From: Pseudomonadota bacterium
GTDB taxonomy: Bacteria > Pseudomonadota > Gammaproteobacteria > Steroidobacterales > Steroidobacteraceae
Length of the DNA: 26,819 nucleotides
Assembly: GCA_021850555.1 (NCBI GenBank)
Contig: JAJZLX010000528.1
Span: forward strand, 1-26,819
Direction: 5' to 3'
Shown: positions 5,670 through 23,971 of the stretch, one piece after another
Layout: each line of letters begins with the position of its first letter
How positions within the stretch are numbered: the first letter of the stretch is position 1
The notes under the pieces: model-generated
Databases searched by the model: none
Told to the model about the DNA's origin: nothing
What the model saw: the letters and a program-made list of their open reading frames with translations, nothing else
Position numbers and translations under genes: made by a program

Positions 5670-5781
5670 GGTGTGGCCATATGGACGTGGCGGAAGAGCG
5701 ATCCGACTTCCGAGCGTGGACAGACGAGTCTCGTGCACTGTGGACCGCGCGAACACTGCACGCAGCGGCTCTGTCACGCAC

Positions 5782-6314: not shown

Positions 6315-7106
6315 TCAGTGACCTCGTGATCGGCGTCGTTTTAAACGTCCGGCAATGACCAGACGGGACTCGAGGAGTCCGGTCAGGTGAGTTGTCAGAT
6401 CAAACTGGGGGCAAGATCGGCTGGCACGCTCTGCGGCCCTGGCAAGGGGATGGCCGTCCGCAAGGGAAAGAAGAAACGCGGCGCCTCCGGCGGGCAGTTC
6501 GCGAATTTCCACTTCCGCATTGGGTCGCGCCACCAGTGCATCCTCGCCGCCGGCTCCGATATCGAGCGGACCCACCTCGGCATCTGCAAGATTCATCTGC
6601 CAGATCGACAGTGCCGGAAATGGCGAGCGGACCACACGGACCGAGGGGTGCAGCGTGAGACACAAGTCCCCGACGCGGTTCGCGGGCACATCTGCGAGCA
6701 CCGCCGGGTCAAGTGGCGGGGCGTCCGCGGCGTGATATGCCTCGAGCCACGCTCGCTCGATGCGCGCGACATCCGCCAGATAGGGCAGTTCCGCAAGGGG
6801 CTCAAATCGCTCGAGAAACGCGGCGAATCCTCCGCCGTATTCCAGCATCACCGCCGAGCGCGGCAGCTCCTGCGCCGCGTAGAGACGGGCGGTTTCGCGG
6901 AAGCACTCCTCGCCAAGCAAGCGTCGGACGGCGGGGTAACCATCGGCGATGCAGTCAATGAGGCTCGAGACCACATTGTTCCGGTACACCGCAAAGCGTT
7001 TCGCATCGGACTTTCCGGCCGGATCCCGGCAATCAGCGGGCACGGGCAGTTCGGGATCGAGGAGCGCCGCGGCGAATGCGCGCTGCACTTCAGCCAGCGG
7101 CCGCAT
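6315..7106 (-). CDS. bufC: HvfC/BufC-family protein (DUF2063), partner of the MNIO enzyme
   Basis: The 263-residue protein carries the DUF2063 pattern: RFAVYRNNV (41-45 is YRNNV) followed by the GYPAVRRLLGEECF segment, then LPYLADVARIERAWLEAYHA around 107-126. DUF2063 proteins pair with DUF692/MNIO enzymes and are believed to deliver the precursor peptide to them; the older 'DNA-binding' label is doubtful. ATG 7106 overlaps the end of bufB by 17 bases and has GAGGAG upstream, which indicates translational coupling. A longer frame to 7169 would lie inside bufB and is rejected. Confidence 0.92.
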   Translation of the reverse strand: MRPLAEVQRAFAAALLDPELPVPADCRDPAGKSDAKRFAVYRNNVVSSLIDCIADGYPAVRRLLGEECFRETARLYAAQELPRSAVMLEYGGGFAAFLERFEPLAELPYLADVARIERAWLEAYHAADAPPLDPAVLADVPANRVGDLCLTLHPSVRVVRSPFPALSIWQMNLADAEVGPLDIGAGGEDALVARPNAEVEIRELPAGGAAFLLSLADGHPLARAAERASRSCPQFDLTTHLTGLLESRLVIAGRLKRRRSRGH

Positions 7107-7992
7107 GCAGCGTCTCCTCGCTCTGGCGGTGGCTTGAAAGAACGGCTTCGGCGCGCCTCGCCTCGGCATGAAGTTCGGTCCATTCGGGGAGCCTTTGATC
7201 CCACTCGATCAGCGTCGGGATGGGGCCCAACCGCTCGATGGCACGGGCGTAAAGGTCCCAGACGAGCTGGCTGACCTGCCGATCGTGCGAGTCGATGAGC
7301 AGCGGTTGTCCGCTGTCATCGGCATCCGTGGCGTGGCCCGCGAGGTGGATCTGGCGTACATGGGCCAAAGGGAACTGCTCAATGTAGTGCACGGGATCCC
7401 AGTGCTGGTTCGTGCACGCGACATACACATTGTTGACATCGAGCAGCAGGCCGCAACCGCTGCGGCGTGCGACTTCAGATATAAAATCGACTTCCCAGTA
7501 CGTGCTCTCGGCAAAGGCGACGTAAGTGGAGGGATTCTCGAGCAGGAGCTGTCTGCCGAGATACTCCTGAACCTGCTCGATGTGCTCGCATACCCGCTGC
7601 AAGGTTTCTCGGGTATAGGGCACGGGGAGCAGATCGTTGAAGAACAGCCCCCCGTGCGAGGACCATGCCAGGTGTTCCGAGAACAGACCCGGCTCATAGC
7701 GTCCAACGAGCTCGGCGAGCCGCCGCAAGTGATCTCGATCGAGGGGGCGATCGGCGCCGATTGACAGCCCCACTCCGTGCAGAGAGAGTGGGTAGCGTGC
7801 GCGAATCTCGGTGAGATATCGATGCGGCGGCCCGCCGGCACCCATGTAATTCTCCGCGTGCACTTCGAAGAACCCGATGTCCGGTCGCGATTCGAGAATC
7901 CGCCGGTAATGCGGTGCCTTGAGGCCGACCCCGGCGCGGGCCGGAATCTCCTTGCGCGATGGGGCACGAATCATCGTCTCGGGAAGAACCAT
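7090..7992 (-). CDS. bufB: MNIO enzyme BufB (DUF692), multinuclear non-heme iron oxidase for bufferin maturation
   Basis: The 300-residue TIM-barrel protein keeps the DUF692 metal-ligand set: H72 in LHGVGLS, H107 in FSEHLAW, E152 in LLENPS, D185 and N187 in LLLDVNN, H216 and H220 in IHLAGH, H236 in DSHD and E263 in LIEWD. MNIO enzymes use iron clusters and oxygen to convert precursor cysteines; in bufferins they are reported to form thiooxazole heterocycles. It acts in the cytoplasm on the BufA precursor, with BufC as partner. The gene begins 45 bases after the bufA stop and overlaps bufC. The start is taken at ATG 7992; an in-frame ATG at 7974 is also possible. Confidence 0.95.
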   Translation of the reverse strand: MVLPETMIRAPSRKEIPARAGVGLKAPHYRRILESRPDIGFFEVHAENYMGAGGPPHRYLTEIRARYPLSLHGVGLSIGADRPLDRDHLRRLAELVGRYEPGLFSEHLAWSSHGGLFFNDLLPVPYTRETLQRVCEHIEQVQEYLGRQLLLENPSTYVAFAESTYWEVDFISEVARRSGCGLLLDVNNVYVACTNQHWDPVHYIEQFPLAHVRQIHLAGHATDADDSGQPLLIDSHDRQVSQLVWDLYARAIERLGPIPTLIEWDQRLPEWTELHAEARRAEAVLSSHRQSEETLHAAAG

Positions 7993-8490: not shown

Positions 8491-8518
8491 GATTCGGGTC
8501 GCGGCGCAAAAAGGTTAC
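8491..8518 (-). promoter_or_regulatory. ECF sigma (SigF-like) promoter of the bufferin operon
   Basis: On the minus strand GTAACC (8518-8513) is followed by exactly 16 bases and CGAATC (8496-8491), about 75 bases before bufA. The same -35 (with a shared T run and GC before it), the same 16-base spacer and the same CGAATC occur before the Cys-Pro repeat gene. The match to the GTAACC-N16-CGAA motif of Caulobacter SigF is from memory. Confidence 0.82.
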
Positions 8519-8718
8519 GCTCAAGCGCGGTGGGGCCTGCGCCGCGCTCGGTGCCGGTGCCCCGCGAGTCACCCTCGGCGGGTGCCGCAGGTGCCAGGCA
8601 GAGTCGAGCAAGCGGCGCGAGCCGAGGTGAAACGCCTGCACTTGCCGCCCGGGGCCGTAACATCTCTCAGGAATCCCCGGTCCTATTCCTCGGAAGCGGG
8701 TTGAGCCTGTGGATTTCT
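8519..8718 (+). other. Leader region before the radical SAM operon, no gene seen
   Basis: These 200 bases separate the bufA promoter from the radical SAM start. The frame is open in phase with that gene but the translation is Pro/Arg/Ala-rich and unlike its family, so I treat it as untranslated leader. It contains a short hairpin (CACCCTCGGCGGGTG, near 8570-8584) and a CTCTCAGG at 8664-8671. No clear sigma-70 promoter or known riboswitch is evident. Confidence 0.35.
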
Positions 8719-9810
8719 ATGAGCGGGAGTCGTTACACACCAATGGAATCGATCTACTACGTGCTCTGCTGGGCGTGTCACCGCAAGTGTCGCCATTGCT
8801 ACGAACCGCGTTTTCGGCCCTATGTGCGCGGGGCGCTGGAGGCGGTCATCGCCGAGGCGGTCGCCCATATGCCGCGCATCATCGAGCACTTGCCGGCGCG
8901 CATGAGCTACCTAGACCGGGAGCGCGCAGCGCCCGACGGGAGCCTGCCTGAGCGCCGGGGTCGGATCATTCTCGCCGGCGGCGAAGTGCTGCTCGAGCCG
9001 GTGCGCACCCGGGTGCTGTATCCGGCCATGGAGCGGATCCGGTCGCGCTATGCCGGGCGGGGCGGCGTCGAGCTCATCGTCCAGACGACAGGCGACCTGC
9101 TGACTGACCCGATCATTGATGAGTTGCTCGCGCACGGTGCCGGTACCGTCTCAGTATCGGGTGTCGATGATTTCCACTCCGGCATGCAAGGGCCCGCCAA
9201 GCAGGCCGCGTTCAGGGAGCGTTTGACCCGGATGTTCGAAGCCCATGGTCTGCGGCCCGTGCCCGCACCGGTGAACGCGCAGGCGCATTCCGAGGAGAAT
9301 TCCGGACCCTATTACCATTTCTTCGGCGCCACCCCGGATGCCTGGATCGGTAGTCTGTGGCCCAGGGGTCGGGCGTGGGAGAATGGTCTTTCGACGGCGA
9401 CCCTAGCGGATAACTTTTGTAACCGCTGGTCGGGGGGGTTACGCTTCTTGGAGCATCGCTACAACGGCTCGGAAGTGTCCATCGATCCGAGCGGCGATGT
9501 GTTCCCGTGCTGCCTCAAGACTCGTGCGCCGATCGGCAATCTGCTCGAGGACGATTTGATCGCGATTCTGGATTCCCTTGCCGAGGAGCCTGCGTATCAG
9601 GCGATCTCGGCAGGGCATCCCGAACGGATGGGTCGAGCTTATGGCTGGAGTGATGAGCGCTTCCTCGAGGCCTGTCGTACCACCACACCGAAAGGAGAAC
9701 CCTATGTCAATCTCTGCATCGGCTGCGATCGCTTCCACGATGCCGTGCTGGGACCGGTGATCGAGGCCGCTCGCGCCCGGCGCGCGAGCGCGAGGATTCG
9801 AGTCGCGTGA
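8719..9810 (+). CDS. Radical SAM protein with SPASM-like C-terminal cysteines
   Basis: The 363-residue protein (from ATG 8719) has the radical SAM cluster motif CHRKCRHC with C20, C24 and C27 binding a 4Fe-4S cluster, and an early GG-E SAM-binding stretch (LAGGEVLLEP). The C-terminal third has further cysteines: NFCNRW, FPCCLKTRAPIGNL and NLCIGCDRFHD. That SPASM-like pattern implies extra iron-sulfur clusters, as in peptide- or small-molecule-modifying enzymes. The substrate is not known. The start may instead be ATG 8743; neither has a strong ribosome site. Its TGA overlaps the ATG of the next gene (TGATG), so it leads a seven-gene operon with an ABC importer, a flavoprotein and two transferases. 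Confidence 0.85.
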   Translation: MSGSRYTPMESIYYVLCWACHRKCRHCYEPRFRPYVRGALEAVIAEAVAHMPRIIEHLPARMSYLDRERAAPDGSLPERRGRIILAGGEVLLEPVRTRVLYPAMERIRSRYAGRGGVELIVQTTGDLLTDPIIDELLAHGAGTVSVSGVDDFHSGMQGPAKQAAFRERLTRMFEAHGLRPVPAPVNAQAHSEENSGPYYHFFGATPDAWIGSLWPRGRAWENGLSTATLADNFCNRWSGGLRFLEHRYNGSEVSIDPSGDVFPCCLKTRAPIGNLLEDDLIAILDSLAEEPAYQAISAGHPERMGRAYGWSDERFLEACRTTTPKGEPYVNLCIGCDRFHDAVLGPVIEAARARRASARIRVA

Positions 9811-11024
9811 TGCGTCCGTACGCCTTGTGGGTCAGCGCAACCGCGGTTGTCCTGGCGACCTTCGCTACGTTGCCTGGCACTGCGCTCGGGGCCTCGATGC
9901 CCTGGAAGGACGTCCTGGCGCGGGCCCGCGGTGAGACGGTTTATTTCGACGCATGGGCCGGTGACGAAAGGGTCAACGCATACATTGCCTGGGTGGCGCG
10001 GCAGGTCGCTGCCTGCTGCGACATCACGTTGCGCCAGGTGCCGCTGCAAGATACGTCCGAGGCCGTGACGCAGATCATTTCCGAGAGAGCGGCCGGGCAA
10101 AATGCAGATGGGACCGTCGATCTCGTGTGGATCAATGGATTGAACTTCTACGCGCTTCAGCGGCGGGATCTCTTGTACGGGCCCTTCACGCAGCGATTGC
10201 CCAATTACGCGTGGGTCAATACGCGGGACCCATCGAATCTCTATGACTTCACCGTACCGGTGGATGGGTACGAGTCGCCCTGGCGCAAGGCCCAACTCGC
10301 CTTCATCTACGATTCCGCGTACGTCAAACACGTGCCGCATACCATCGGCGCATTCCCCGCGTGGGCGAAACGCCATCCCGGCCGCTTTACCTTTCCCCAG
10401 GTACAGAACTTCCTCGGGATCGCGTTCCTCGAACAGGCGCTCTACGCGCTCACGCCCGACCCGAGGGTGCTGCAGCGCCCGGCGAGTCAGGCCGAATTCG
10501 AGAAGGTGACAGCACCGCTTTGGGCGTGGTATGGGCGGCTGCAGCCGTATCTGTGGGACCACGGGCGGGAATTCCCCGCCAGCGGACCGGCCGAACGGGA
10601 GCTTCTCGAGGATGGCGAGATCGATCTGATGCCCACGTTCAATCCGACTGAGGCCGCCGCCGACGTCGAGGCGGGTCTGCTGCCGAAGACAGTCCGCACT
10701 TTTATCCTCACCGACGGTACGATCGGCAACACGAGCTTCGTGGCGATTCCCTACAATTCACCGCACAAGGCCGGCGCGATGGTCGTGGCGAACTTTCTGC
10801 TCTCACCGCGGGCGCAGGCGCGCGCCGGTAACATTCGCTACCTCGGGGGCGCTACCGTGCTGGATCTTGCGAAGCTGCCGCCGGCTGAACGGGTGCTGTT
10901 CACTTCGCGTCCCTCAAGCCCCTGGGTGCCGCCGCTCGCCGCACTGCATCATGTGCTCCCCGAGCCGCAGCCCTCTTGGGCTCGCCGCCTCGCACAAGCC
11001 TGGCAGCAGCGATACACGCCCTGA
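9810..11024 (+). CDS. ABC transporter substrate-binding protein, YnjB-like
   Basis: A 404-residue periplasmic solute-binding protein. The N-terminus is a signal peptide (RPYALWVSATAVVLATF, then LPGTALGAS). The body matches the YnjB-type family related to iron/thiamine-type binding proteins: TVYFDAWAGDERVNAYIAW near the N-terminus, VDLVWINGLNFYAL, and LMPTFNPTEAAADVEAG later. YnjB proteins are often labelled thiamine transport components, but the ligand is unproven. ATG 9810 overlaps the stop of the radical SAM gene (TGATG) and its own stop overlaps the permease start in the same way. Confidence 0.88.
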   Translation: MRPYALWVSATAVVLATFATLPGTALGASMPWKDVLARARGETVYFDAWAGDERVNAYIAWVARQVAACCDITLRQVPLQDTSEAVTQIISERAAGQNADGTVDLVWINGLNFYALQRRDLLYGPFTQRLPNYAWVNTRDPSNLYDFTVPVDGYESPWRKAQLAFIYDSAYVKHVPHTIGAFPAWAKRHPGRFTFPQVQNFLGIAFLEQALYALTPDPRVLQRPASQAEFEKVTAPLWAWYGRLQPYLWDHGREFPASGPAERELLEDGEIDLMPTFNPTEAAADVEAGLLPKTVRTFILTDGTIGNTSFVAIPYNSPHKAGAMVVANFLLSPRAQARAGNIRYLGGATVLDLAKLPPAERVLFTSRPSSPWVPPLAALHHVLPEPQPSWARRLAQAWQQRYTP

Positions 11025-12769
11025 TGCGCAGCACGGTGCTCGGATCGAACGCTGTCTCAGCGCTACGCCTCGCGCAGATTCCCTTTTGGCTGCGTCAAGC
11101 GCCGCGGGTGACGGTGGCCCTGTTTCTGGTGCCCATCGCGGCGGGCCTGTTCGGGACGGTGCTGCCCGCGTTCGGCTGGTTGCCGGCGATCGGCGGGGAC
11201 AGCGTGAGCCTTGCGCCCTGGAGAACGCTCCTCGCTCAGCCGGGGATCGGTGAGGCGATTGGCCTGACACTTGCGTCGGGCTTCATTTCGACCGCTCTGT
11301 CGGTCGTTCTCGTCTTCGGCTTTTGCGCCCTCGCGCATGGACGGAAACCGGGGCGAATCGGACGCATCCTGATGGCGCCGATTCTCGCCGCGCCGCACGC
11401 GGCGATGGCCATTGGACTCGGATTTCTCATCGCTCCAAGTGGCTGGATCGTCAGGCTCCTCTCACCCTGGCTGACCGGCTGGCATCAGCCGCCGGACCTC
11501 GCCACGGTACAGGACCCCTACGGCATCGCGTTGATCTTAGGGCTGCTCGTGAAGGAAGTGCCGTATCTGCTCTTAATGACGATCGGGGCGCTGGGCCAAG
11601 TGCCTGCGGTGCGCCAAATGGAAGCCGCCGCCGCGCTGGGTTACGGGCGCACTCTCGCCTGGTTCAAGCTGGTTCTCCCCCAGGTCTATCCGCAAGTGCG
11701 ATTGCCGATCTACGCAGTCCTCGCCTATGCGCTCTCGGTGGTGGATATGGGGCTGATACTGGGGCCCAGCAATCCACCGACGCTCAGCGTGCTGGCGCTG
11801 CGCTGGTTCACTTCGCCCGATATACGGATGTATTTCCCGGCCGCGGCGGCCGCGCTGTTGCAGCTGCTGATCGTGCTGGCGAGCATCCTGCTGTGGCGCG
11901 GGGGGGAGAAGGTCTTCGCTCGCCTCGGTCGGCGCTGGATCGCCCGCGGCTCACGCCGTACCTGGCTTGAGCCGCTCGCGTGGCTCGCCGCTGCGGCCGT
12001 GGCCGGGCTTGCGGCCCTGGGGGTGGGGTCTCTGGCCGATCTGGCGCTGTGGTCGTTTGCGGGCGGATGGCGCTTCCCGGACGCGTTGCCGGCGCACTGG
12101 AGCACTCAGACTTGGTCGGGTCAATTCGAGACGATTCTTTGGCCTCTTGAGACCACGCTCCTGGTCGCTATCGTGGCGAGCGGGGTGGCGCTGTTGCTCG
12201 CTCTGGCGTGCCTGGAGAACGAGCAGCGCCGCGGTGTGGCGGCAACGTCGCGGACGCTATGGCTGCTCTACGTTCCGCTCCTGGTCCCGCAGATTGCGTT
12301 CTTGTTCGGCATGCAGGTCTTGCTGACGGTCTCGCATCTTGACGGCTTGCTCATCGCCGTGATCTGGTCGCATCTTCTGTTCGTGCTGCCGTACGTATTT
12401 CTCTCCCTCGCCGATCCGTGGCGAGCGCTCGATAAGCGCTACGCGCGCACCGCGCTCAGCCTCGGTGCCCGGCCATGGCGGGTGTTTCTGAGGATCAAGA
12501 TACCTTTGTTGCTGCGTCCGCTCCTCATCGCCACCGCCGTCGGTGTGGCCGTGAGTGTAGATCAGTACTTGCCCACCCTCTTCGCCGGGGCTGGTCGAGT
12601 GGTCACCCTGACCACGGAGGCCGTGACGCTCGCAAGCGGGGGTGATCGGCGCTTCACCGGCGTGTTCGGGCTGCTGCAGGCGCTGATTCCGCTGGCGGTC
12701 TATGGGGTTGCCCTTGGCGCCTCAGGGCGGGTCCGATTCCCCAGAGGAGTGCTCGGAGGACCCCCATGA
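11024..12769 (+). CDS. ABC transporter permease with two fused permease modules, YnjC-like
   Basis: The 581-residue inner-membrane protein contains two BPD-type permease modules in one chain. The first has an EAA-loop sequence (MEAAAALGYGRTLAWFKLVL) near the middle of the N-terminal half. The second has ARTALSLGARPWRVFLRIKI in the C-terminal half. Each is surrounded by hydrophobic helices. This fused layout is that of YnjC and other Fe/thiamine/putrescine-type importers, so a single gene supplies both membrane halves. ATG 11024 overlaps the stop of the binding-protein gene, and the stop overlaps the ATPase start (ATGA), indicating coupled translation. Confidence 0.9.
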   Translation: MRSTVLGSNAVSALRLAQIPFWLRQAPRVTVALFLVPIAAGLFGTVLPAFGWLPAIGGDSVSLAPWRTLLAQPGIGEAIGLTLASGFISTALSVVLVFGFCALAHGRKPGRIGRILMAPILAAPHAAMAIGLGFLIAPSGWIVRLLSPWLTGWHQPPDLATVQDPYGIALILGLLVKEVPYLLLMTIGALGQVPAVRQMEAAAALGYGRTLAWFKLVLPQVYPQVRLPIYAVLAYALSVVDMGLILGPSNPPTLSVLALRWFTSPDIRMYFPAAAAALLQLLIVLASILLWRGGEKVFARLGRRWIARGSRRTWLEPLAWLAAAAVAGLAALGVGSLADLALWSFAGGWRFPDALPAHWSTQTWSGQFETILWPLETTLLVAIVASGVALLLALACLENEQRRGVAATSRTLWLLYVPLLVPQIAFLFGMQVLLTVSHLDGLLIAVIWSHLLFVLPYVFLSLADPWRALDKRYARTALSLGARPWRVFLRIKIPLLLRPLLIATAVGVAVSVDQYLPTLFAGAGRVVTLTTEAVTLASGGDRRFTGVFGLLQALIPLAVYGVALGASGRVRFPRGVLGGPP

Positions 12770-13515
12770 GCGGCCCGTTGCGCCTCGAGGAGGTCGCGAT
12801 CGAACTCAACGGCTGCCTGCTCATACCGCCCCTCAGTGTTGCGGTAAGGCCTGGGGAGGTCCTCACCTTGATGGGTCCGAGCGGCTCGGGTAAATCTACC
12901 TTGCTCAGCGTCCTCAGTGGCACCGTCGCACCGGTCTTTCGTGTCGGGGGCCGGGTGTGGATCGGTGAGCGGGAGGTGACAGATCTGCCGCCTGAGCGCC
13001 GACGCATGGGCATTCTGTTCCAGGATGATCTGCTGTTTCCCCACCTGTCGGTCGAGGAGAATCTAGCGTTTGGGCTGGCCTCCTCGGTGCGCGGCCGAAG
13101 CGTGCGCGCGGCGCGGATCGAAGCGGCGCTGCGCGATGCGGGGCTGGCAGGATTTGCGCGGCGCGATCCGGCGACGCTCTCCGGCGGACAGCGTGCGCGT
13201 GTGGCGCTGATGCGTCTGCTATTGGCTGAGCCGCAGGCCCTGTTGCTCGATGAGCCCTTCAACAAGCTCGACGCGGCGCTGCGCGCGGACTTCCGCCGCT
13301 TCGTGTTTGCGCATGCCAGGACGGCCGGTCTGCCGGTCTTGATGGTCACACACGATGCGAAGGACGCTGTCGCCGCCGAGGGGCCGGTGCTCGAACTGTT
13401 GAAGACACCCGAGGGCATACCCGTCATCCACGGATCAGACCCGGGCCGGACGATTCGCGCGCTCAATGACATCACCCCAGGCATGGTCCGGCCGCCCTTG
13501 GCCGAACGGATTTGA
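12766..13515 (+). CDS. ABC transporter ATPase, YnjD-like
   Basis: A 249-residue nucleotide-binding subunit. Walker A is GPSGSGKST at 37-45, the Q-loop is LFQDD with Q86, the signature is LSGGQ at 138-142, Walker B is ALLLDEP ending at E163, and the switch histidine is H196 in MVTHD. It powers import through the fused permease. The C-terminus lacks the regulatory TOBE domain seen in larger ATPases, consistent with the short YnjD type. It overlaps the permease gene by four bases. Confidence 0.93.
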   Translation: MSGPLRLEEVAIELNGCLLIPPLSVAVRPGEVLTLMGPSGSGKSTLLSVLSGTVAPVFRVGGRVWIGEREVTDLPPERRRMGILFQDDLLFPHLSVEENLAFGLASSVRGRSVRAARIEAALRDAGLAGFARRDPATLSGGQRARVALMRLLLAEPQALLLDEPFNKLDAALRADFRRFVFAHARTAGLPVLMVTHDAKDAVAAEGPVLELLKTPEGIPVIHGSDPGRTIRALNDITPGMVRPPLAERI

Positions 13516-13517
13516 AT

Positions 13518-14933
13518 GTGACAACACCCATGACGTGCGACATCTGTGTCATCGGCGCTGGTTCCGCGGGACTCTCGGTCGCCGTGGGGGCCGCGCAGCT
13601 CGGTGCTCAGACCATCCTGTTCGAGAAGGGCGAGATGGGCGGGGACTGCCTCAATTACGGCTGTGTCCCCTCAAAGGCGCTGCTTGCGGCAGCGCATACG
13701 GCGCAGACGATTGCGGATGCCGATCAGTTCGGCATTCACGTCGGTTCATCGCACGTCGATTTCTCCGCGGTCATGGCCCATGTGCATGACGTGATGGCGC
13801 AGATCGCTCCACACGATTCGGTCGAGCGTCTCGAGAAATTGGGGGTGCGCGTCATCCGGGCTCCGGCTGCATTCGCTGGTCCTGACGAGGTCACCGGAGG
13901 TGGCGTGCGCGTTCGCGCCCGCCGTATCGTCATCGCCGCAGGCTCATCGGCGGTTGTGCCGCCCATCCCGGGTATCGAGAGCGTTCCCGTCCTGACCAAT
14001 GAAACGCTCTTCGCACTGAAGGAACGTCCGCAGCACCTGCTCATCATCGGCGGCGGTCCGATCGGTGTGGAGATGGCCCAGGCATTCAGGCGTCTCGGCA
14101 GCGCCGTCACGGTGTTCCAACGCGATCGGCTCATGCCGCGCGATGAACCGGAACTCGTGGAAATACTCCGGACGCGGCTCACTGCCGAGGGGATCACACT
14201 GCACGAATGTTCGAACATCACCCATCTATCTCGCTCGGGTGAGCGCATTGTGCTTCGGCACGATGACATGGAAGCCGTCGGCTCACATCTGCTCGTCGCA
14301 GCGGGTCGTCAGCCGCGGCTTGCGGGGCTTAACCTCGAGGGCGCAGGTATCGCGCATACCCCGCAGGGCATCACGGTCGACGCGCGGCTACGCACGACTA
14401 ACCGACGAGTGTATGCATTGGGCGATGTCACCGGGCGGCCCCAGTTTACGCATACGGCGGGGTATCAGGCCGGAATCCTGATCCGCAATATGCTGTTTCG
14501 TCTGCCGGCGAAGGTCGATTACCGTGCCTTGCCCTGGGTGACCTATTGTGATCCGGAGCTTGCGCATGTGGGCCTTACCGAGCAGCAGGCCCGCAAGCAA
14601 TTCGGCGCATCCGTGCAGGTGGTACGGGTGAATTTTGCGGAAAATGACCGCGCTCAGGCCGAACGCCAAACGGCCGGGCGCATCAAGGTGGTGATCGACA
14701 AGCGAGGCACCATCCTCGGGGCGGGGATCGTCGGTGCGCAGGCCGGTGAGCTCATCGGGCTGTGGGGTCTTGCAATCACGCGAGGGCTGAAACTGAGTGC
14801 GCTCACCGGGGTCATCTTTCCCTACCCCACCCTGGGGGAGCTCTCGAAGGCCGCCGCCGGGTCGTTCTACGCGCCCAAGCTCTTCAGCCCATGGCCGAAG
14901 CGCTTGGTTCGCCTGCTGCTCTCCCTCGCCTGA
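13518..14933 (+). CDS. FAD-dependent pyridine nucleotide-disulfide oxidoreductase (Lpd/MerA-like)
   Basis: The 471-residue flavoprotein has an FAD-binding GAGSAG at 13-18, a redox disulfide in GGDCLNYGCVPSK (C44, C49), an NAD(P)H-binding GGGPIG, and YALGDVTG. It is close to dihydrolipoamide dehydrogenase and mercuric reductase. It lacks the C-terminal His-Glu active-site pair: the expected HxHPTxxE reads FPYPTLGE, with Tyr in place of His. It also lacks the C-terminal vicinal cysteines of MerA and any N-terminal heavy-metal domain. The role is therefore probably not classical lipoamide or Hg(II) reduction. Start codons TTG 13512, GTG 13518 and ATG 13530 are all possible, and none has a good ribosome site. 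It follows the ATPase with no gap. Confidence 0.88.
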   Translation: MTTPMTCDICVIGAGSAGLSVAVGAAQLGAQTILFEKGEMGGDCLNYGCVPSKALLAAAHTAQTIADADQFGIHVGSSHVDFSAVMAHVHDVMAQIAPHDSVERLEKLGVRVIRAPAAFAGPDEVTGGGVRVRARRIVIAAGSSAVVPPIPGIESVPVLTNETLFALKERPQHLLIIGGGPIGVEMAQAFRRLGSAVTVFQRDRLMPRDEPELVEILRTRLTAEGITLHECSNITHLSRSGERIVLRHDDMEAVGSHLLVAAGRQPRLAGLNLEGAGIAHTPQGITVDARLRTTNRRVYALGDVTGRPQFTHTAGYQAGILIRNMLFRLPAKVDYRALPWVTYCDPELAHVGLTEQQARKQFGASVQVVRVNFAENDRAQAERQTAGRIKVVIDKRGTILGAGIVGAQAGELIGLWGLAITRGLKLSALTGVIFPYPTLGELSKAAAGSFYAPKLFSPWPKRLVRLLLSLA

Positions 14934-14939
14934 TCAACT

Positions 14940-15635
14940 ATGAGGCACGATGCCAGCGCCGGTGCGCTCGACATTTCGGTGATCGTGCCGACCCTGAATG
15001 CGGCGCGATATCTGCCCGCGACGCTTACCGCCTGTCGCGGCGTGCGCGAGACCCTTGTGGTCGACGGAGGCTCGGCCGACGAGACTGTCTCGGTCGCGCG
15101 ATCGCTGGGGGCGCAAGTCATCGCCTCGCAACCCGGGCGGGGTATCCAACTGCATGCGGGTGCCCAAGCCGCCGCGAGCGACTGGCTGTTGTTCCTGCAC
15201 GCGGACACGGTGCTCGGTGCGCACTGGTCGGAAGCGGCGCGTGAGTTCATCGGGAATCCATGCAATCATCTGTGTGCCGCAACATTCCGCTTCGCACTCG
15301 ATGATGCGAGCCGAGCGGCCCGCCGGCTCGAGCAGCAGGTGGCGTGGCGCGTGCGCCGCCTCGGCCTCGCTTATGGCGATCAGGGACTGCTCATTCATCG
15401 GCAGCTGTACGAATCGCTCGGCGGCTATCGGCCCTGGCCCCTGATGGAAGATGTGGATCTGGTGCGGCGCGTGGGGCGCCGTCGGCTGCGGGTACTCGCT
15501 CCGGTGGCGCTGACTTCGGCCGAACGGTGGCGCGCCGATGGCTGGCGCCGCCGCAGCGTACGCAATCTCGGCTGTCTCGCCTTGTATTTCCTGCGCGTGC
15601 CGCCCCGGCTCATCGCCAGGCTCTACGGCGGATGA
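14940..15635 (+). CDS. TIGR04283-type family 2 glycosyltransferase (rSAM/selenodomain-associated transferase 2)
   Basis: A 231-residue GT-A glycosyltransferase. It begins with the nucleotide-sugar strand ISVIVPTLNAARYLPATL, followed by LVVDGGSADETVSVA, GRGIQLHAGAQAA and LLFLHADTVL, where HAD is the metal-binding acidic motif. GGYRPWPLMEDVDLVRR near the C-terminus is the acceptor-side motif. This set is that of TIGR04283, which occurs with radical SAM proteins in selenium- or arsenosugar-related clusters. The sugar and acceptor are unknown. It begins 6 bases after the flavoprotein stop, and its own stop overlaps the next ATG (ATGA). Confidence 0.9.
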   Translation: MRHDASAGALDISVIVPTLNAARYLPATLTACRGVRETLVVDGGSADETVSVARSLGAQVIASQPGRGIQLHAGAQAAASDWLLFLHADTVLGAHWSEAAREFIGNPCNHLCAATFRFALDDASRAARRLEQQVAWRVRRLGLAYGDQGLLIHRQLYESLGGYRPWPLMEDVDLVRRVGRRRLRVLAPVALTSAERWRADGWRRRSVRNLGCLALYFLRVPPRLIARLYGG

Positions 15636-16225
15636 ACCCCCGTATGCGCCACCTTGTGATTTTCACACGCGCGCCTCGTATGGGCCGGGGTAAGCGACGT
15701 CTCGCGCGCGATGTCGGCGAACTCACGGCTTTTCGGTTTCAGCAGGCCACGCTGGCCCGATTGTTGCGAGAGCTCGCACGCGATGCCCGCTGGCGGACCT
15801 GGCTGGCGGTCACGCCGGATGGTTCCGGCCCCTGGCCGCGAGCCTTGCCCGTCCTGCCCCAGGGGCGTGGCGACCTGGGGCGGCGCATGGCCTCTGTGGT
15901 GGGCCGCTTGCCGCCGGGCCCGGTGGTGATCGTCGGCAGCGACATCCCGGGAATTCGGCGCGCAGACGTCGCGGCGGCCTTCCGCGCCCTCGGTGCGCAC
16001 GAGGCTGTCCTCGGGCCGGCGCTCGATGGCGGCTACTGGCTCATCGGGTTGCGGCGACGCGATCGCTTCCACGATCCCTTCGGGAATGTGCGCTGGTCGA
16101 GCGCGCATGCGCTCACCGACACCCTGGAGAATCTGCGCGATCGGCGCGTGGCACTCCTGCGGCCGCTCGCCGACATCGATGACGGAGCGGACTGGCGCCG
16201 GCATCAACGCGGTGAGATCACCTGA
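15632..16225 (+). CDS. TIGR04282-type transferase (DUF2064, rSAM/selenodomain-associated transferase 1)
   Basis: The 197-residue protein has the DUF2064 landmarks: FTRAPRMGRGKRRLARDVG at the N-terminus, VIVGSDIPGIRRADVAAAF in the middle and LGPALDGGYWLIGLRR after it. The usual K-T-R-L signature near residue 20 is K-R-R-L here. Members look like nucleotidyl- or glycosyltransferases and are regular partners of TIGR04283. It closes the seven-gene operon. The overlap with the preceding gene argues that the two act together on the same product. Chemistry is inferred from family only. Confidence 0.9.
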   Translation: MNPRMRHLVIFTRAPRMGRGKRRLARDVGELTAFRFQQATLARLLRELARDARWRTWLAVTPDGSGPWPRALPVLPQGRGDLGRRMASVVGRLPPGPVVIVGSDIPGIRRADVAAAFRALGAHEAVLGPALDGGYWLIGLRRRDRFHDPFGNVRWSSAHALTDTLENLRDRRVALLRPLADIDDGADWRRHQRGEIT

Positions 16226-16318
16226 GCGCACGCGCAGCCGAGTCCCTGTCGCACTCAACCAGCCTCCGGTCCAACGGTCAACGGAGCACGTGCCTGTACG
16301 GGCGGCCCCGCTGTGTGT

Positions 16319-16334
16319 CGCGGCGAGTGCCGCG
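16319..16334. terminator. Hairpin between convergent genes
   Basis: CGCGGC-GAGT-GCCGCG forms a perfect six-pair stem between the stop of the transferase gene (16225) and the stop of the TonB receptor (16345). No T-run follows on either strand, so factor-independent termination is uncertain. Confidence 0.3.
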
Positions 16335-16344
16335 CATTGGAAGC

Positions 16345-18732
16345 TCAGAAGGCATGGCGGTATTGCAGCAAGACCGTCAGGGGCCGCAGTGTGGCCACTT
16401 GGGGAATGACCGTCCCGTTGGCGGTGTACTGCGCATAACCGATGTAGCCGATATCACCGAGGTTCGGCCTCGCATTGGTGGCATTGCGCACGTTCAGCGA
16501 GACCGACGTCCGTCCGCGGCGCACGCCGATCCGTAAATTAACCAAAACATATGAGCGGCGCGTGGCGAAGGTGTCATTGGCGCCGTTCAGCAACGCCCGG
16601 CTGTTTCCGGTGTAACTCGCGTCGGCTTCAAGAAAACCGTCAACCGTGGCCGAGATCGGCTGGGTGTATACACCGGCGAGCGTCGCCGTCCAGGTCGGTG
16701 TCCCGAGCACTCGTGAACCGGGTGTAACCCCGACAATGGCCAGCGCGCCCGGCTCGGTGATGTCAGTTTTTTCGTAACCCACGCCGGCGCGCAGCGCAAG
16801 TGAGGGGACCACATGACCATCGAGTTCGAGTTCCCCGCCATTGATCTGTGCTCGTCGGCCATTGATGTCGAATATGGCTTCGCAGGGCAGGGCGACCTGC
16901 TGCTGGAGATTGCGCCAATCGATGTGGAAGGCGGCGGCGGAGAGCAGCAAACCAGTGTCCGGGATCTGCGTCTTGCCGCCGATCTCGTAGCTCCAGAGCG
17001 TGTCGGATTTCAGGTGCGTAATATCGTTGATCGGCAGGTTCGGCAGCGCACAGAAGGGCAGATACGTTTGCGCGGCGCCGGCACGAAATCCTTCCGCGGC
17101 GGACGCATAGATCATGGCCTGCGTGTCGATTTGGTAGGATAGGGCAACTTTCGGATTTATCCCGGACTGACGGCTCGACTGCGGCGCGCTCGGCGTGACA
17201 CCGAAATTGTTGAAACCATTGGCGGTGAAATCCGAGGTCTGGTGGAGCCAGTATTGCCGTGCGCCCAGAGTCAATTTCAGGTGGCGCGCGAGCGGCACAT
17301 AGATCTGCCCGAACAGCGCGACGTCGCGCTGCATGGCCGGGTTGTAATCCGTCCAGAGCAGGTCGTTGGGCCATGGACCGACGACCGTATTGTTGCGGGT
17401 CGCGGCCACCAGCCCCCGGGCGTACTCGGGCGGAACCGACAGCGCCGAGCGGCTGCGCGCAAAGAAGGCGCCCACCGTGCCGCTCGTGCCGAGAACGCCT
17501 TTGAAAGCGAGGCGCAGCTCTTCCGTGAACTGATTTTCGTAGTTTTCCTGATCCCAGAGAAACGGTTGAGCAGGCAGGGTCGCAACGCCATAGTAGCTCT
17601 GGAGGATCTGCTCGGTGCCGTAGGTCGAGTCCTCGATGTCACGGTTGTGGTGATAGAAATAGCTGGTGGCGGAGACGATCCGTAGCTTGCCGCGTCGATA
17701 GTGAATCTCGAGCGACGGGAGCACCCAGGCGTCGGTCGCGCCGGGCTGGACGTTGAAGGCTCGATTGAGCGTGTAGGTGGGCTTGAAAGCCGGTAGCGGC
17801 GCGAAAGTCGCCGGAAACCCCTTGTCATGCGTGTCTTGCGCCATGACCCGCAGGCGCACCCCGAGTGCCGAACTGAGGTGCCAACGGGTCGTAATCGAGC
17901 CGCCATAGGTCGTTTTGGCGCCTTGATCGCCCACGCTCGTGCGCGGTGCCGGCAGAAAGGGGTTCTCGACCGCCGGGCTCGATGGTGCGGGGTACGTGCG
18001 GGTGAGGTATCCGGCCTCATGAGCGCCAAAGATCACGATGCGGGTCGCGAGGTGCCCCGGAACGAGCGCGATGTTCTCGATGAGGCTCGCCCCCCCATCG
18101 GCGCTGCCGCCGCCTGAAGTGACCCCGACATCAGCGGTGTAGCCGAGTTCGTCGCGACGGAGGTTCGGCGATTGAGTGATGATGCGCACGGTGCCGCCGA
18201 GAGAGCTCTCGCCAAAGAGCGTCCCTTGCGGTCCCTTGAGGACTTCGATCCGCTTGACGTCGACGATGCGCGGATCGATCGACTCCGGGAGCGGCGTGTT
18301 ATCGATATAGAATCCCGTCGCGCCCGATGTACCGAAGAGATTCTGTCCCGTGATGCCCCGGATCGCCACGGTTCGGGCATTGGAAATTCCGGTCGACCCT
18401 GCCCCGTACACGAACGAGAGGTTGGGCGTCTTGGTCGCATAGCCGTCGAAGGAACGAATGTCGAGCGCGGACAGAGTTTCGGATGAGAAGACCGTGATGC
18501 TCTCCGGGACTTTGGCGACGGGTTCGCGCTGCTCCTGCGCAGTGACGATGACGGTACGCAACGCCCCGAGGTCCGTCTCTGCGCTCGCCGCCTCTGCCAC
18601 CATACAGGGGCCTAAGGTCAGCGCAACGAGCATGAGCACGGTCAGAGGGCGCAAAGGAGTGCGCATCGCCGTTGCGATGCCTGTGGGCGTCAGAGGGGGC
18701 GTCGCCCCGCGATTCAGCTGATTCATGGACAT
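16345..18732 (-). CDS. TonB-dependent outer-membrane receptor
   Basis: The 795-residue protein has an N-terminal signal region (hydrophobic run LTVLMLVALTLGP, after a long N-region), a TonB-box-like RTVIVTAQ, a plug domain with PNLSFVYGAG, VAIRGITGQN, VDVKRIEVLKGPQGTLFGESSLGGTV, and a long beta-barrel ending in the outer-membrane signature QYRHAF. It imports a ligand too large or scarce for porins, powered by TonB. The ligand is unknown. The barrel resembles siderophore- and catecholate-type receptors only loosely. The start is taken at ATG 18732, though ATG 18666 gives a more usual signal peptide. It converges on the radical SAM operon, and no regulator adjoins it. Confidence 0.9.
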   Translation of the reverse strand: MSMNQLNRGATPPLTPTGIATAMRTPLRPLTVLMLVALTLGPCMVAEAASAETDLGALRTVIVTAQEQREPVAKVPESITVFSSETLSALDIRSFDGYATKTPNLSFVYGAGSTGISNARTVAIRGITGQNLFGTSGATGFYIDNTPLPESIDPRIVDVKRIEVLKGPQGTLFGESSLGGTVRIITQSPNLRRDELGYTADVGVTSGGGSADGGASLIENIALVPGHLATRIVIFGAHEAGYLTRTYPAPSSPAVENPFLPAPRTSVGDQGAKTTYGGSITTRWHLSSALGVRLRVMAQDTHDKGFPATFAPLPAFKPTYTLNRAFNVQPGATDAWVLPSLEIHYRRGKLRIVSATSYFYHHNRDIEDSTYGTEQILQSYYGVATLPAQPFLWDQENYENQFTEELRLAFKGVLGTSGTVGAFFARSRSALSVPPEYARGLVAATRNNTVVGPWPNDLLWTDYNPAMQRDVALFGQIYVPLARHLKLTLGARQYWLHQTSDFTANGFNNFGVTPSAPQSSRQSGINPKVALSYQIDTQAMIYASAAEGFRAGAAQTYLPFCALPNLPINDITHLKSDTLWSYEIGGKTQIPDTGLLLSAAAFHIDWRNLQQQVALPCEAIFDINGRRAQINGGELELDGHVVPSLALRAGVGYEKTDITEPGALAIVGVTPGSRVLGTPTWTATLAGVYTQPISATVDGFLEADASYTGNSRALLNGANDTFATRRSYVLVNLRIGVRRGRTSVSLNVRNATNARPNLGDIGYIGYAQYTANGTVIPQVATLRPLTVLLQYRHAF

Positions 18733-18873
18733 AGGGGCAGCCGGCTTTCTTGTCGGGCGCGGACTATTTCCTTAGGGACTGGCGGCGGCGCCGTATTCGG
18801 TCCGATGCGGCAGGGGACGGGGCATCCAGGTGCCGCGCGTACGGGTCGGGACGGCGTCGCCGCCAAGGGATGC

Positions 18874-18898
18874 GGTCCTACCCTCCTGTGGCAGGACC
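18874..18898. terminator. Hairpin after the Cys-Pro repeat gene
   Basis: GGTCCT at 18874-18879 pairs with AGGACC at 18893-18898, with two more inner pairs after a mismatch. It lies just past the stop of the minus-strand repeat gene and before the TonB receptor start. There is no T-run, so it is only a candidate terminator. Confidence 0.3.
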
Positions 18899-18914
18899 TT
18901 CCTAGGGTCGCACG

Positions 18915-19202
18915 TCAGCGGGTTTTCGGTGAGCAGGGGCTCTTCGGGGCGCGCGGATTCTTAGCCGCGCAAGGATTTGGCGCCTTCGCCGCACGGGGCT
19001 TTTTCGCTGGCGCACAGGGATTCTTCGCTGCACACGGGCTTTTGGCCCCGCAGGGGTTTCTGGGTGAGGGAGTGCTGCGTGCGGGGAGCGGCTTGCACGG
19101 TGCCCGCGTGTGCGCGTTCTGAGCGAACGAGGGGGCGGCGAGGGCGCCGCCGACCACAATCGCTGCGCCGAGAGTGAGGGCGGTCTTGCTGAAGGACTTC
19201 AT
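18915..19202 (-). CDS. Secreted Cys-Pro repeat peptide (NPC/SPC repeats), candidate metal-binding RiPP
   Basis: The 95-residue protein has a clear signal peptide (KSFSKTALTLGAAIVVGGA, cut near APSFAQ). A mature part of about 65 residues follows, built almost only of Ala, Lys, Arg, Pro, Asn, Ser and Cys. Six cysteines (C36, C51, C57, C63, C78, C90) lie in repeats of the form [N/S/A]-P-C-x-x-K, most with an AK pair after the Cys. It is strongly basic. No enzyme domain is present. ATG 19202 has CGGAGA upstream; the frame runs much further up but that part is out of character. It shares an exact ECF promoter with bufA. I infer metal binding or modification by an MNIO enzyme; neither is shown by sequence. 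Confidence 0.8.
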   Translation of the reverse strand: MKSFSKTALTLGAAIVVGGALAAPSFAQNAHTRAPCKPLPARSTPSPRNPCGAKSPCAAKNPCAPAKKPRAAKAPNPCAAKNPRAPKSPCSPKTR

Positions 19203-19234
19203 GAGCATCTCCGAGTGCGGGGTGATTATCTGAT

Positions 19235-19262
19235 GATTCGGTCGAGGCAATGAAAAGGTTAC
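19235..19262 (-). promoter_or_regulatory. ECF sigma (SigF-like) promoter of the Cys-Pro repeat gene
   Basis: On the minus strand GTAACC (19262-19257) is followed by 16 bases and CGAATC (19240-19235), about 30 bases before the ATG. Both elements, the preceding GC, the following TTTT and the spacer length are identical to the bufA promoter. Confidence 0.82.
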
Positions 19263-19299
19263 GCATGTACTGTGAAACCGCGAGCCGCTCACGAGAGGC

Positions 19300-19325
19300 G
19301 AAACCTTTTGGCGACTTCGAGCGAA
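19300..19325 (+). promoter_or_regulatory. ECF sigma promoter, one mismatch, of the nrsF gene
   Basis: On the plus strand GAAACC (19300-19305), a 16-base spacer beginning TTTT, and CGAA (19322-19325) lie about 76 bases before nrsF. It differs from the two minus-strand copies at one -35 base, so it may be a weaker, autoregulatory promoter divergent from the repeat gene. Confidence 0.65.
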
Positions 19326-19401: not shown

Positions 19402-20067
19402 GTGACCGCGCTCACGACAGAAGAACTGATCGACATCCTGGTGTCGCGGATGCGTCCGGTTCGCGCTCTGCGCACACCGGCGCTGCGCGTCGCTGCCTGG
19501 GTGGCGATCTGTCTGCCGTGGCTGATCCTCGTGGTCCTCACCATGGGGTTGCGGCCCGATCTGGCGCCGCGGCTGAGCGATGCGCGCTGGCTGATCGAGC
19601 AGGCCGCCGCGGCGGCAACGGCCATCACGGCGGCCCACGCGGCATTGGGGGCGGGTATTCCAGGGCGCGGGCGAGCGTGGGAGCGTCTCGTGCCGCTGGC
19701 GTTGCTCGCGGTGTGGCTGGGAACGCTGGGTCATGGGTGTTTCACGGCGTTGCACCGGCAGGGGCCGCACGGCCTCATGTTGCACTCCGACTGGGCCTGT
19801 CTGCCGGGGGTGGCCCTCGTGGGCTCGATTCCCGCAATTGCCATCGCTCGGATGATTTCCCGGGGGGTGCCGCTCGCGCCCGTCTCGACCGCGGCGCTCG
19901 GCGCGCTCGCCGCTGCGGCGCTGGGTGAGGTGGGCCTGCAATTCTTTCACCGGGCCGATTCGAGCCTGACGGTACTCCTCTGGCAGGGGGGAGCGGTGAT
20001 CGGGTTGACGGTGCTCGGCGCCTGCTTGGGATCGTCTTGGGTGCGCAGGCGGTCTGCAATGCCGTGA
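19402..20067 (+). CDS. nrsF: NrsF-family anti-sigma membrane protein (DUF1109)
   Basis: The 221-residue protein has about six membrane helices and the DUF1109 layout: a short cytoplasmic N-terminus (LTTEELIDILVSRMRPVRAL), a loop LRPDLAPRLSDARWLIEQA after the first helix, then SDWACLPGVALVGSIPAIAI and MISRGVPLAP. In Caulobacter NrsF holds the ECF factor SigF at the membrane until metals such as chromate or cadmium act. Two cysteines, recalled as C131 and C181, are important there. Here C133 is kept, but the second position reads LQFFHRADS with no Cys. GTG 19402 has GGAGA eight bases upstream. No sigma gene adjoins it, and the DUF6969 gene overlaps its stop. Confidence 0.87.
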   Translation: MTALTTEELIDILVSRMRPVRALRTPALRVAAWVAICLPWLILVVLTMGLRPDLAPRLSDARWLIEQAAAAATAITAAHAALGAGIPGRGRAWERLVPLALLAVWLGTLGHGCFTALHRQGPHGLMLHSDWACLPGVALVGSIPAIAIARMISRGVPLAPVSTAALGALAAAALGEVGLQFFHRADSSLTVLLWQGGAVIGLTVLGACLGSSWVRRRSAMP

Positions 20068-20798
20068 AGACCTTGCATGAGCACAGCTTGCCCGAGAGCC
20101 TCGCGCAAACCGAGTCCGAACTCGAGCGGCTGGCGCAAGCCGCGGCGGAAGTGGTCAACTGCATCCGCGTCTTGGAGAAAAGCGGCAGCAACCTGGTCAC
20201 CGAAGTGCTCGGCGAACGCGAGTTTGTCGAGTTCGAACACTACCCGAAGAACGACGTTTACGACCCGGAGACACACGCACAATATTACTTTCACGCGCAC
20301 CCCCCGACGCGTGGCGAATGGAATGACTACGGGCACTTTCATACCTTCCTGCGACCCAAGGAATGGGTCCGGGAGCTCCGTCTGGCCGCGCCCGGCACGG
20401 AGCCCACCACCGAAGTCAATGACCCCGTGTGCCACCTCGTCGCGATTTCGATGAACCCGCACGGCCGCCCGGTGCGACTCTTCACCACCAACCGCTGGGT
20501 GACCGGCGAGACCGGGTGCGCAGCGCCGGAGCTCATCGGCATGCTCGATCGGTTCGTGGTCGATTTGGCCAAGCCGTCTTGGCCACTCAACCGCTGGATC
20601 TCGGCGATGATCCGGCTGTATCGGGAAGAGATCGTGAAACTTATACATGAGCGCGATGCGAGCATTGCCGAGTGGCAGATCACGCATCCGGAGCGGGACG
20701 TATTCGAGGACCGCGCGCTCGAGGTGACCTCCGCAATGACCATTGACCTCGATGCACGCCTCGCGCTCATTCGGTCTCGCCTGGGTCTGACGGACTGA
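20064..20798 (+). CDS. DUF6969 family protein of unknown function
   Basis: The 244-residue soluble protein matches what I know as DUF6969: EVVNCIRVLEKSGSN near residue 30, then EHYPKNDVYDPETHAQYYF and HAHPPTRGEW, GHFHTFLRPKEW, HLVAISMNPHGRPVRLF and TTNRWVTGETG. Six histidines (59, 71, 77, 79, 91, 93) lie close together and could form a metal site. No signal peptide or helices are seen. GTG 20064 overlaps the nrsF stop (GTGA), so the two are probably translated together and DUF6969 falls under the same ECF promoter. A TTG at 20037 would lie inside nrsF. Function is not assigned. Confidence 0.85.
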   Translation: MKTLHEHSLPESLAQTESELERLAQAAAEVVNCIRVLEKSGSNLVTEVLGEREFVEFEHYPKNDVYDPETHAQYYFHAHPPTRGEWNDYGHFHTFLRPKEWVRELRLAAPGTEPTTEVNDPVCHLVAISMNPHGRPVRLFTTNRWVTGETGCAAPELIGMLDRFVVDLAKPSWPLNRWISAMIRLYREEIVKLIHERDASIAEWQITHPERDVFEDRALEVTSAMTIDLDARLALIRSRLGLTD

Positions 20799-23850: not shown

Positions 23851-23940
23851 GGCGAGAGTGCCTCGAGGGGGAGGAACAGCGGGCAAAGCCGCCCGAGCCG
23901 GTACAGGGGATTCTACCCCATACGCGATCGCCGAAAGTCC

Positions 23941-23971
23941 TTGACATGGAGTGCACTCCAGGTTCGAGGAT
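23941..23971 (+). promoter_or_regulatory. MerR-type promoter/operator of the exporter operon
   Basis: TTGACA (23941-23946) and GAGGAT (23966-23971) are separated by 19 bases, the long spacing that MerR regulators correct. The spacer contains a perfect 14-base palindrome TGGAGTGCACTCCA (23947-23960). It sits between the divergent merR (start 23850) and the exporter gene (start 24038). Confidence 0.82.

Follow-up and report, generated by a model that had tools for sequence, protein, structure and literature searches.

A putative NrsF-controlled ECF16 regulon linking a bufferin operon, a repeat peptide gene and a detached anti-sigma factor gene

The stretch of DNA analyzed here, referred to as the window, comprises the 26,819 nucleotides of contig JAJZLX010000528.1 from a Steroidobacteraceae assembly (GCA_021850555.1). 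It carries a bufferin (buf) operon, a gene for a small repeat peptide, and nrsF, a gene for an anti-sigma factor, and each is preceded by nearly the same promoter-like sequence of the extracytoplasmic function (ECF) type. The locus raises the question of whether these three sites belong to one regulon and, if so, which sigma factor reads them. We conclude that the sites are most probably (probability of roughly 0.8) the promoters of one NrsF-controlled regulon of a group ECF16 sigma factor, of the kind represented by Caulobacter SigF and Cupriavidus RpoQ.

Promoter sites and their conservation

A reading of the window made from its letters, without database searches, had placed GTAACC-N16-CGAATC before bufA and before the repeat-peptide gene, and GAAACC-N16-CGAA before nrsF; all three were found exactly where it had put them. 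GTAACC-N15-17-CGAA has two matches in the window, both N16 (8493-8518 and 19237-19262, minus strand), compared with a mean of 0.06 in the shuffled window, and two or more sites were reached in 0 of 100 shuffles. The -10 element of both extends to CGAATC. The site before nrsF lies at 19300-19325 (plus strand), and the GNAACC pattern gives three window matches against a shuffle mean of 0.17, with three reached in 0 of 100 shuffles. A longer core, GNAACCTTTT, is common to all three sites, and with up to two mismatches it matches just these three (shuffle mean, 0.20; three reached in 0/100 shuffles). Calculated from coordinates, the motif ends 77, 34, and 76 bases before the start codons of bufA, the peptide gene, and nrsF, respectively. 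The ECF16-type promoter GTAACC-N16-CGAA is present before the targets, and nrsF has the GAAACC variant. The consensus given in the sequence-only reading for Caulobacter SigF is the one printed in PMC3511200 (GTAACC-N16-CGAA), and its link to NrsF and to buf-type targets agrees with PMC3511200 and PMC6180224. One detail required correction: the supposed Cys-Pro repeat gene does encode a repeat peptide, but the repeat is Asn-Pro-Cys (NPCAAK-like), and we refer to it as the NPC peptide.

The arrangement is not confined to the window. Genome G001 is a metagenome-assembled genome ("Proteobacteria bacterium isolate SKS4.bin46") whose locus L001, found by a scan of the genome contigs, has an nrsF 76% identical to that of the window. 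The layout of the nrsF region and all three promoters recur in G001, G042, and G011; together with the window, these are the four island genomes. In their alignment, the NPC and nrsF promoter sites are conserved blocks within the intergenic region, and the GAAACC form of the nrsF promoter is kept in all four. The NPC promoter of G011 (L066) has an N15 spacer. The same promoter precedes bufA in G001 (L005, L076), L065, L066, and L067-L070. Across G001, the exact GTAACC pattern occurs seven times, versus two for a reversed control. Six of the seven sites have CCTTT; two of these stand before buf genes (the syntenic bufA and a second buf operon), and the others before a DoxX gene, the NPC gene, a sigF-nrsF operon, and a PEP-CTERM-like gene. 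The seventh (L007), without CCTTT, is at none of the reference genes.

Ninety-nine genomes around G001 were scanned and divided by the presence of an NrsF above the Pfam cut-off (28 with, 71 without). Over the whole set, GNAACCTTT-N13-CGAA occurs at 35 places versus 18 for the reversed control; the 28 NrsF genomes account for 19 versus 3, and the other 71 for 16 versus 15. Eighteen of the 19 places in NrsF genomes are at buf, sigF, nrsF, NPC, or DoxX genes, the exception being G001:C34:1709, and the two inspected among the 16 places in NrsF-less genomes (G093, G079) are at no reference gene. In the 3.5 Mb of G042 there are exactly three matches, all within the island. The sequence-only reading had named a random scatter of the motif over the genome, or the lack of a SigF-type sigma gene, as fatal to its regulon. 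Neither was seen in the relatives, where the motif falls at such genes as described and, of the 28 NrsF genomes, 25 have a sigma gene directly beside an nrsF gene (exceptions, G042, G011, and G051). The regulon reading is supported by these sequence comparisons, the motif being conserved in relatives and in excess solely where NrsF exists. What has been computed is the sequence of each promoter, how well it is conserved, its excess in NrsF genomes alone, and the NrsF subtype described below.

The place G001:C34:1709 (L003, 1501-2451) puts a promoter before a secreted PEP-CTERM-like protein (recognized by eye), an unexpected possible member of the regulon.

The detached NrsF and its candidate sigma factors

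The window NrsF is 22 to 24% identical to the NrsF1/NrsF2 kind. Its identity to the NrsF proteins of plasmids of Paraburkholderia fungorum and Burkholderia glumae is 43% and 40% by alignment and 45% and 42% by BLAST, respectively. In Caulobacter NrsF, the periplasmic cysteines C131 and C181 are required for keeping the regulon quiet (PMC3511200). Among the window NrsF and 53 relatives, Cys133, the counterpart of C131, is kept in 54/54 rows and Cys113 in 47/54, and the position of C181 is taken by His183 in 52/54; the NrsF1/NrsF2 kind has Cys there. Since the second Cys is absent, the window nrsF was assigned to an RsqA-like type (type B). By its sequence it is of this type and not the clade's usual SigF partner, a subtype beyond the view of the sequence-only reading. 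A 41-row NrsF alignment, which includes four wrong-frame rows (L036, L168, L071, and L156), has the first sensor Cys in 37 rows, the four without it being the wrong-frame rows. At the second position, 24 rows (including one wrong-frame row) have Cys and 12 have His, the latter including the four detached NrsF proteins; an extra Cys occurs in 11 rows, every one also with His at the second position. We also considered the detached nrsF as a decayed SigF partner and rejected this, given an identity of 40 to 45% to the Burkholderiales type and of just 22 to 24% to NrsF1/2.

The structural model of the window NrsF (mean predicted local distance difference test score, 85.6) has six long helices (residues 26-48, 61-83, 92-125, 133-153, 160-179, and 189-218), which are predicted to be transmembrane and would place the protein in the membrane. 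A cytoplasmic N terminus would put Cys133 and His183 on the periplasmic side, with Cys113 lying within the third helix, and we hypothesize that Cys113, Cys133, and His183 form a metal site. A fold comparison of the window NrsF gave no relative in the PDB (best E value, 0.72).

Relatives of the window nrsF are as a rule direct neighbors of a sigma gene. In the clade of the window, by contrast, nrsF is detached, and no remnant of a sigma gene was seen upstream of it by eye in the four-genome alignment. Sinorhizobium meliloti RsiA2 is a precedent for an unlinked anti-sigma gene within its own regulon. RsiA1 and RsiA2 are both named in PMC6180224.

Where, then, is the sigma factor? An operon of SigF1, NrsF1, and YedY(MsrP) was observed in 13 genomes, and the motif or a near variant of it (-10 CGTA, or GTAACCGTT) lies upstream in 10 of the 13 sigF1-nrsF1 loci. 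The sigF1 promoter in L151, L152, L153, and L158 is GAAACCTTT-N13-CGTA, with both elements altered relative to GTAACC...CGAA. The P. fungorum and B. glumae plasmids have the gene order sigma-nrsF-bufABC-doxX. A further sigma factor of G001, SigB, is 47% identical to the Paraburkholderia sigma factor and is encoded on the island's contig, about 18 kb from nrsF. Within the 99-genome set, the proteins closest to it come from G010 (45%) and G059 (44 to 49%). The G010 gene lies about 2.1 kb from the radical-SAM/ABC operon that separates bufA from nrsF in the window, and in G059 a SigB-like sigma gene and a window-kind nrsF adjoin, divergent from a buf operon. Because of this pairing in G059, we favor SigB as the likely partner of the window-type NrsF. 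Synteny between the window and G001 ends at window position 645, about 1.7 kb short of the position of SigB in G001.

Several observations weigh against a single metal-responsive sigma factor acting on all three units. The window has no sigma gene: 43 collected sigma proteins gave no match at an E value of 0.01, and no sigma domain was found among 30 Pfam-scanned window open reading frames (ORFs). SigB was found in G001 alone among the island genomes. G042 has the three promoters and no such sigma factor better than an E value of 4e-12, and G011 has one sigma factor of another branch with no NrsF adjoining, although both assemblies may be incomplete. In the literature, RpoQ control of the gig genes is assumed and undemonstrated (PMC10304878, PMC11022561), and in S. 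meliloti neither rpoE7 nor its target reporters showed a response to H2O2, Cd, or chromate (PMC6180224). Finally, three sigma genes of G001 are candidates (SigF1, SigF2, and SigB), and more than one of them may act. It is conceivable, though in our view less probable than not, that the three promoters are real and that different ECF16 paralogs, or several of them, read them, with the detached NrsF cross-acting and no single closed loop. The three sigma genes of G001, its three NrsF proteins above the cut-off, and the GTAACC promoters of SigF1 and SigF2 themselves (-10 CGAA and CGTA) speak for such a network. In G042, however, the genome has no matches besides the three promoters and no NrsF above the cut-off besides the detached one, and CCTTTT is common to all promoters.

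We consider it very improbable that bufA alone is under sigma control and that the NPC and nrsF motifs arose by chance or are sites of another binding protein. Short motifs can arise by chance, and the nrsF site has a variant -35 element; three such sites, on the other hand, were not reached in 100 shuffles, the NPC and nrsF sites are conserved intergenic blocks in four genomes, and GAAACC is the commoner form before nrsF elsewhere (10/13). We infer one sigma factor for the three units, and metal as the inducer in the window's organism.

A promoter motif within the sigma genes of type-B loci

Among 40 sigma loci, eight have GWAACC-N16-CGAA on the coding strand within the sigma gene. The carriers are plasmids of P. 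fungorum, B. glumae, Cupriavidus (two), and Paraburkholderia PGU19, along with G059, G603, and G480; all eight sites are in frame, 237 to 243 nt before the stop codon, and nrsF is the next gene. The 32 sigma genes without the internal motif include G001 SigB and the G010 gene, neither with nrsF behind it. Sixteen of the 40 best match the SigPf or SigB query, and eight of these lack the motif; in L076 and L144, no nrsF follows and the motif is absent. A prospective search with the Paraburkholderia sigma factor against 296 genomes, some searched earlier for other things, returned six more such sigma genes, none from the 99-genome set. Five carry the internal motif, 237 to 249 nt before the stop codon, and the sixth (L183) has GAAACT, one mismatch. 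The internal motif is present in 13 of 14 loci of a set that we chose as having a SigB/SigPf-branch sigma factor, nrsF behind it, and buf-type genes in the stretch, with two alphaproteobacterial loci left out; in L172 and L173, the sole buf-type match is a weak MNIO (29% and 37%) about 1 kb away.

Codon usage at the site is distinctive when set against the rest of the same 14 genes: Glu is GAA in 11/11 cases (41% elsewhere), Val is GTA in 3/3 (7%), Thr is ACC in 13/14 (44%), and Phe is TTT in 10/12 (28%), and Asn is preceded by GCG or ACG (Ala/Thr) in 14/14, although the sequences are related and these counts are not independent trials. The alternation of Glu and Val in the linker corresponds exactly to GAAACC and GTAACC, and in synonymous identity over 100 columns the motif columns are three of the top four. 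This codon choice argues for selection at the DNA level. The stretch might instead be conserved as a protein linker feature (E/V-T-F...A-N) with no promoter involved, and the linker residues E/V-T-F...A/T-N are indeed conserved as well. Codon shuffles regenerate the motif in 1 to 20% of trials per motif-bearing gene, and the relatedness of the sequences can also be counted on this side. So can six loci without the motif, which likewise count against our interpretation: alphaproteobacterial L169 and L171, despite nrsF and buf genes alongside, and L147, L168, L170, and L178, where an NrsF-like frame or fragment lies behind and buf genes were not found. Against a protein feature stand the extreme synonymous choice at the site and the absence of the motif where nrsF does not follow (L076, L144), and we regard that explanation as unlikely.

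The placement of the motif around these sigma genes is also one-sided. In none of the 14 loci do the 500 nt preceding the sigma gene contain the motif on the sense strand, and the GTAACC motif lies directly before buf genes in eight; in L172 and L173 it points at the weak MNIO about 1 kb off, and four loci have none. SigF2-like sigma genes (L175, L176, L177, and L179) have GTAACC-N15/16-CGAA upstream and none inside. GAAACC is the form used by 10 of the 13 internal sites and by all four detached nrsF promoters, and our guess is that the inhibitor promoter is weaker than the target promoters. The likely design is a sigma factor that induces its own inhibitor and not itself. We lean slightly toward the view that type-B ECF16 systems, outside the sampled alphaproteobacteria, are wired in this way, the sigma factor driving its targets and, from the in-frame internal promoter, its inhibitor alone, and that in the window's clade the inhibitor gene broke away with a GAAACC promoter of the same form and came to share an intergenic region with the gene for the NPC peptide, a new Cys-rich product. 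What appears to be new is this second type of NrsF, the detachment of the inhibitor gene, and the presence of a promoter inside the sigma genes of its relatives. Judged by title and abstract opening, no paper listed by literature searches describes an ECF anti-sigma gene with an internal promoter ahead of it or DUF1109 with promoter motifs, and none links DUF6969, DUF1109, orphan anti-sigma factors, bufferin, and NPCAAK in pairs.

The proposed response, known systems and the genes of the window

At rest, NrsF in the membrane would keep the sigma factor bound. It would be released when a metal or metal-thiol signal in the periplasm, most likely Cu(I), acts on Cys113, Cys133, and His183 of NrsF, and the GTAACC promoters would then fire, leading through bufABC-doxX-dsbD and the NPC peptide gene, perhaps with the TonB receptor, to periplasmic metal-binding peptides. 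The GAAACC promoter would produce more NrsF (and DUF6969) and so end the response. The sigma gene would lie outside the window, SigB being the best type-matched partner in G001. In this scheme we infer the binding of the sigma factor, the metal signal, and the function of the peptide.

Four known systems come closest to this scheme. Caulobacter crescentus SigF-NrsF has the same promoter consensus, NrsF as anti-sigma factor, and buf-type (DUF2282-DUF692-DUF2063-DoxX) targets (PMC3511200); its regulon also includes YedY/MsrP and is induced by copper, and the sigF mutant is copper sensitive (PMC3511200, PMC8224329). Unlike in Caulobacter, the window nrsF is not beside a sigma gene, and its product has His for the second Cys and an extra Cys; the NPC peptide, the TonB receptor, and DUF6969 are missing from the target table of PMC3511200. 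The RpoQ-RsqA/gigPABT system of Cupriavidus metallidurans resembles the window in protein set and divergent layout and is induced by copper and gold (PMC10304878), but its sigma and anti-sigma genes adjoin. Burkholderiales relatives of that system (L165-L167) have the same promoter before buf genes. The internal sigma-gene promoter was seen here in relatives, and it is not mentioned in the available parts of the literature on RpoQ. In C. metallidurans, the rpoQ-rsqA region is reported to be RpoD dependent (PMC10304878, PMC11022561), and rpoQ itself rises under copper (PMC7563307). In the S. meliloti RpoE7-EcfR7 system (ECF16), rpoE7 and its DUF692/DUF2063 target operon are each preceded by a promoter of this form (PMC6180224); in contrast to the window, the sigma and anti-sigma genes adjoin and a promoter precedes the sigma gene. 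The Buf1 clusters of PMC12452194 share the DUF2282 precursor, MNIO, DUF2063, and DoxX, and sigma and NrsF genes are known there; the available text of that survey contains no NPC-type precursor and no promoter analysis.

If correct, these predictions extend the copper-bufferin response to a lineage known here from assemblies alone, and the regulon gains the NPC peptide, a candidate metal binder, and DUF6969 as putative members. They also suggest why it has been difficult to demonstrate that RpoQ controls gig, as the relatives' sigma gene is without such an upstream promoter and the response would be self-damping. Several lineages appear to have maintained a promoter within the coding sequence of a sigma factor, and the Cys-Cys-His pattern provides a concrete sensor hypothesis for type-B anti-sigma factors.

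The NPC peptide is 68%, 66%, and 68% identical to its three relatives, and a ratio of nonsynonymous to synonymous substitution rates (dN/dS) of 0.12 to 0.21 in six pairs indicates purifying selection. It has no match in Pfam or NCBIfam. The marks of an MNIO-modified precursor were not found, as it matches no known family and no MNIO gene adjoins. In a search for relatives beyond the clade, 3 of 396 genomes matched, all three island genomes, and a database of 5.8 billion proteins contained two NPC-peptide proteins, by a word-based search with a low-complexity query that distant relatives may escape. Alongside the bufferin, the peptide may be a second product of the response that binds metal. 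Its number of Cys residues ranges from 6 to 9 over the four genomes. Protein P0001 equals the window NPC peptide save for Arg84, which is replaced by Cys (codon 18951-18953).

Table 1. Locations of the promoter sites and principal genes in the window
Feature	Position	Strand	Basis
Promoter P1, ECF type, GTAACCTTTT...CGAATC, before bufA	8491..8518	-	Motif search; recurs in relatives
Promoter P2, ECF type, GTAACCTTTT...CGAATC, before NPC peptide	19235..19262	-	Kept in L001, L065, L066
Promoter P3, ECF type, GAAACCTTTT...CGAA, before nrsF	19300..19325	+	GAAACC form kept in four genomes
bufA, Buf1 bufferin precursor (DUF2282), 125 aa	8038..8415	-	PF10048, 71.3 bits (cut-off 22.4)
bufB, MNIO bufferin maturase	7090..7992	-	NCBIfam MNIO_BufB, 398.2 bits (cut-off 310)
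bufC, DUF2063 partner protein	6315..7106	-	PF09836, 92.7 bits (cut-off 27.2)
DoxX-family membrane protein	5782..6312	-	PF07681, 48.8 bits (cut-off 23.6)
DsbD-type thiol:disulfide interchange protein	3792..5777	-	PF02683, PF11412; PRK00293, 531.8 bits (cut-off 330)
TonB-dependent receptor	16345..18732	-	PF00593, PF07715; syntenic in L001, L065, L066
NPC-repeat peptide, 95 aa, 6 Cys	18915..19202	-	Signal-peptide-like start (by eye); Asn-Pro-Cys repeats
nrsF, RsqA-like type (type B)	19402..20067	+	PF06532, 74.4 bits (cut-off 26.8)
DUF6969 gene, overlaps nrsF end	20037..20798	+	PF22308, 270.4 bits (cut-off 27)

The leftward operon from 8415 has the composition that defines a Buf1 cluster, namely, a DUF2282 precursor with 4 Cys, MNIO, DUF2063, and DoxX, followed by DsbD. 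According to its translation, the bufA product has a Met-rich N-terminal part, and the DUF2063 protein scores below the HvfC equivalog cut-off (42.7 versus 142). The DsbD-type gene is probably the final gene of the operon, and the gene order is repeated in L065 and L066. The TonB receptor is possibly cotranscribed with the NPC peptide, the gap being about 180 nt, with no terminator-like site found on that strand. The DUF6969 gene is probably on the nrsF transcript. In each of the four island genomes it comes directly after nrsF, and in Skermanella L168 (2048-2743) a DUF6969 protein, 56% identical, is encoded close to a sigma gene that is accompanied by an NrsF fragment; by these neighborhoods, the family is linked to the regulon.

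Divergent from bufA is a run of genes on the plus strand (8530-16225) for a radical-SAM/SPASM protein, a solute-binding protein, a permease, an ABC ATPase, a MerA-like reductase, a family-2 glycosyltransferase, and DUF2064. This run, or the part that the contig allows, accompanies bufA in L065-L070 and L082, and it stands next to a SigB-like sigma gene in L144. At the left edge of the window, a membrane-protein-like frame (1-870, minus strand) runs out of the stretch, and in G001 its N-terminal end alone is matched, fused to another frame. On the right, two MerR-type regulators (21474-21995, plus strand; 23458-23853, minus strand) lie near genes for an efflux protein of the outer membrane and for an HlyD/CusB-like protein (23951-26664), perhaps forming a second, differently controlled metal-resistance system.

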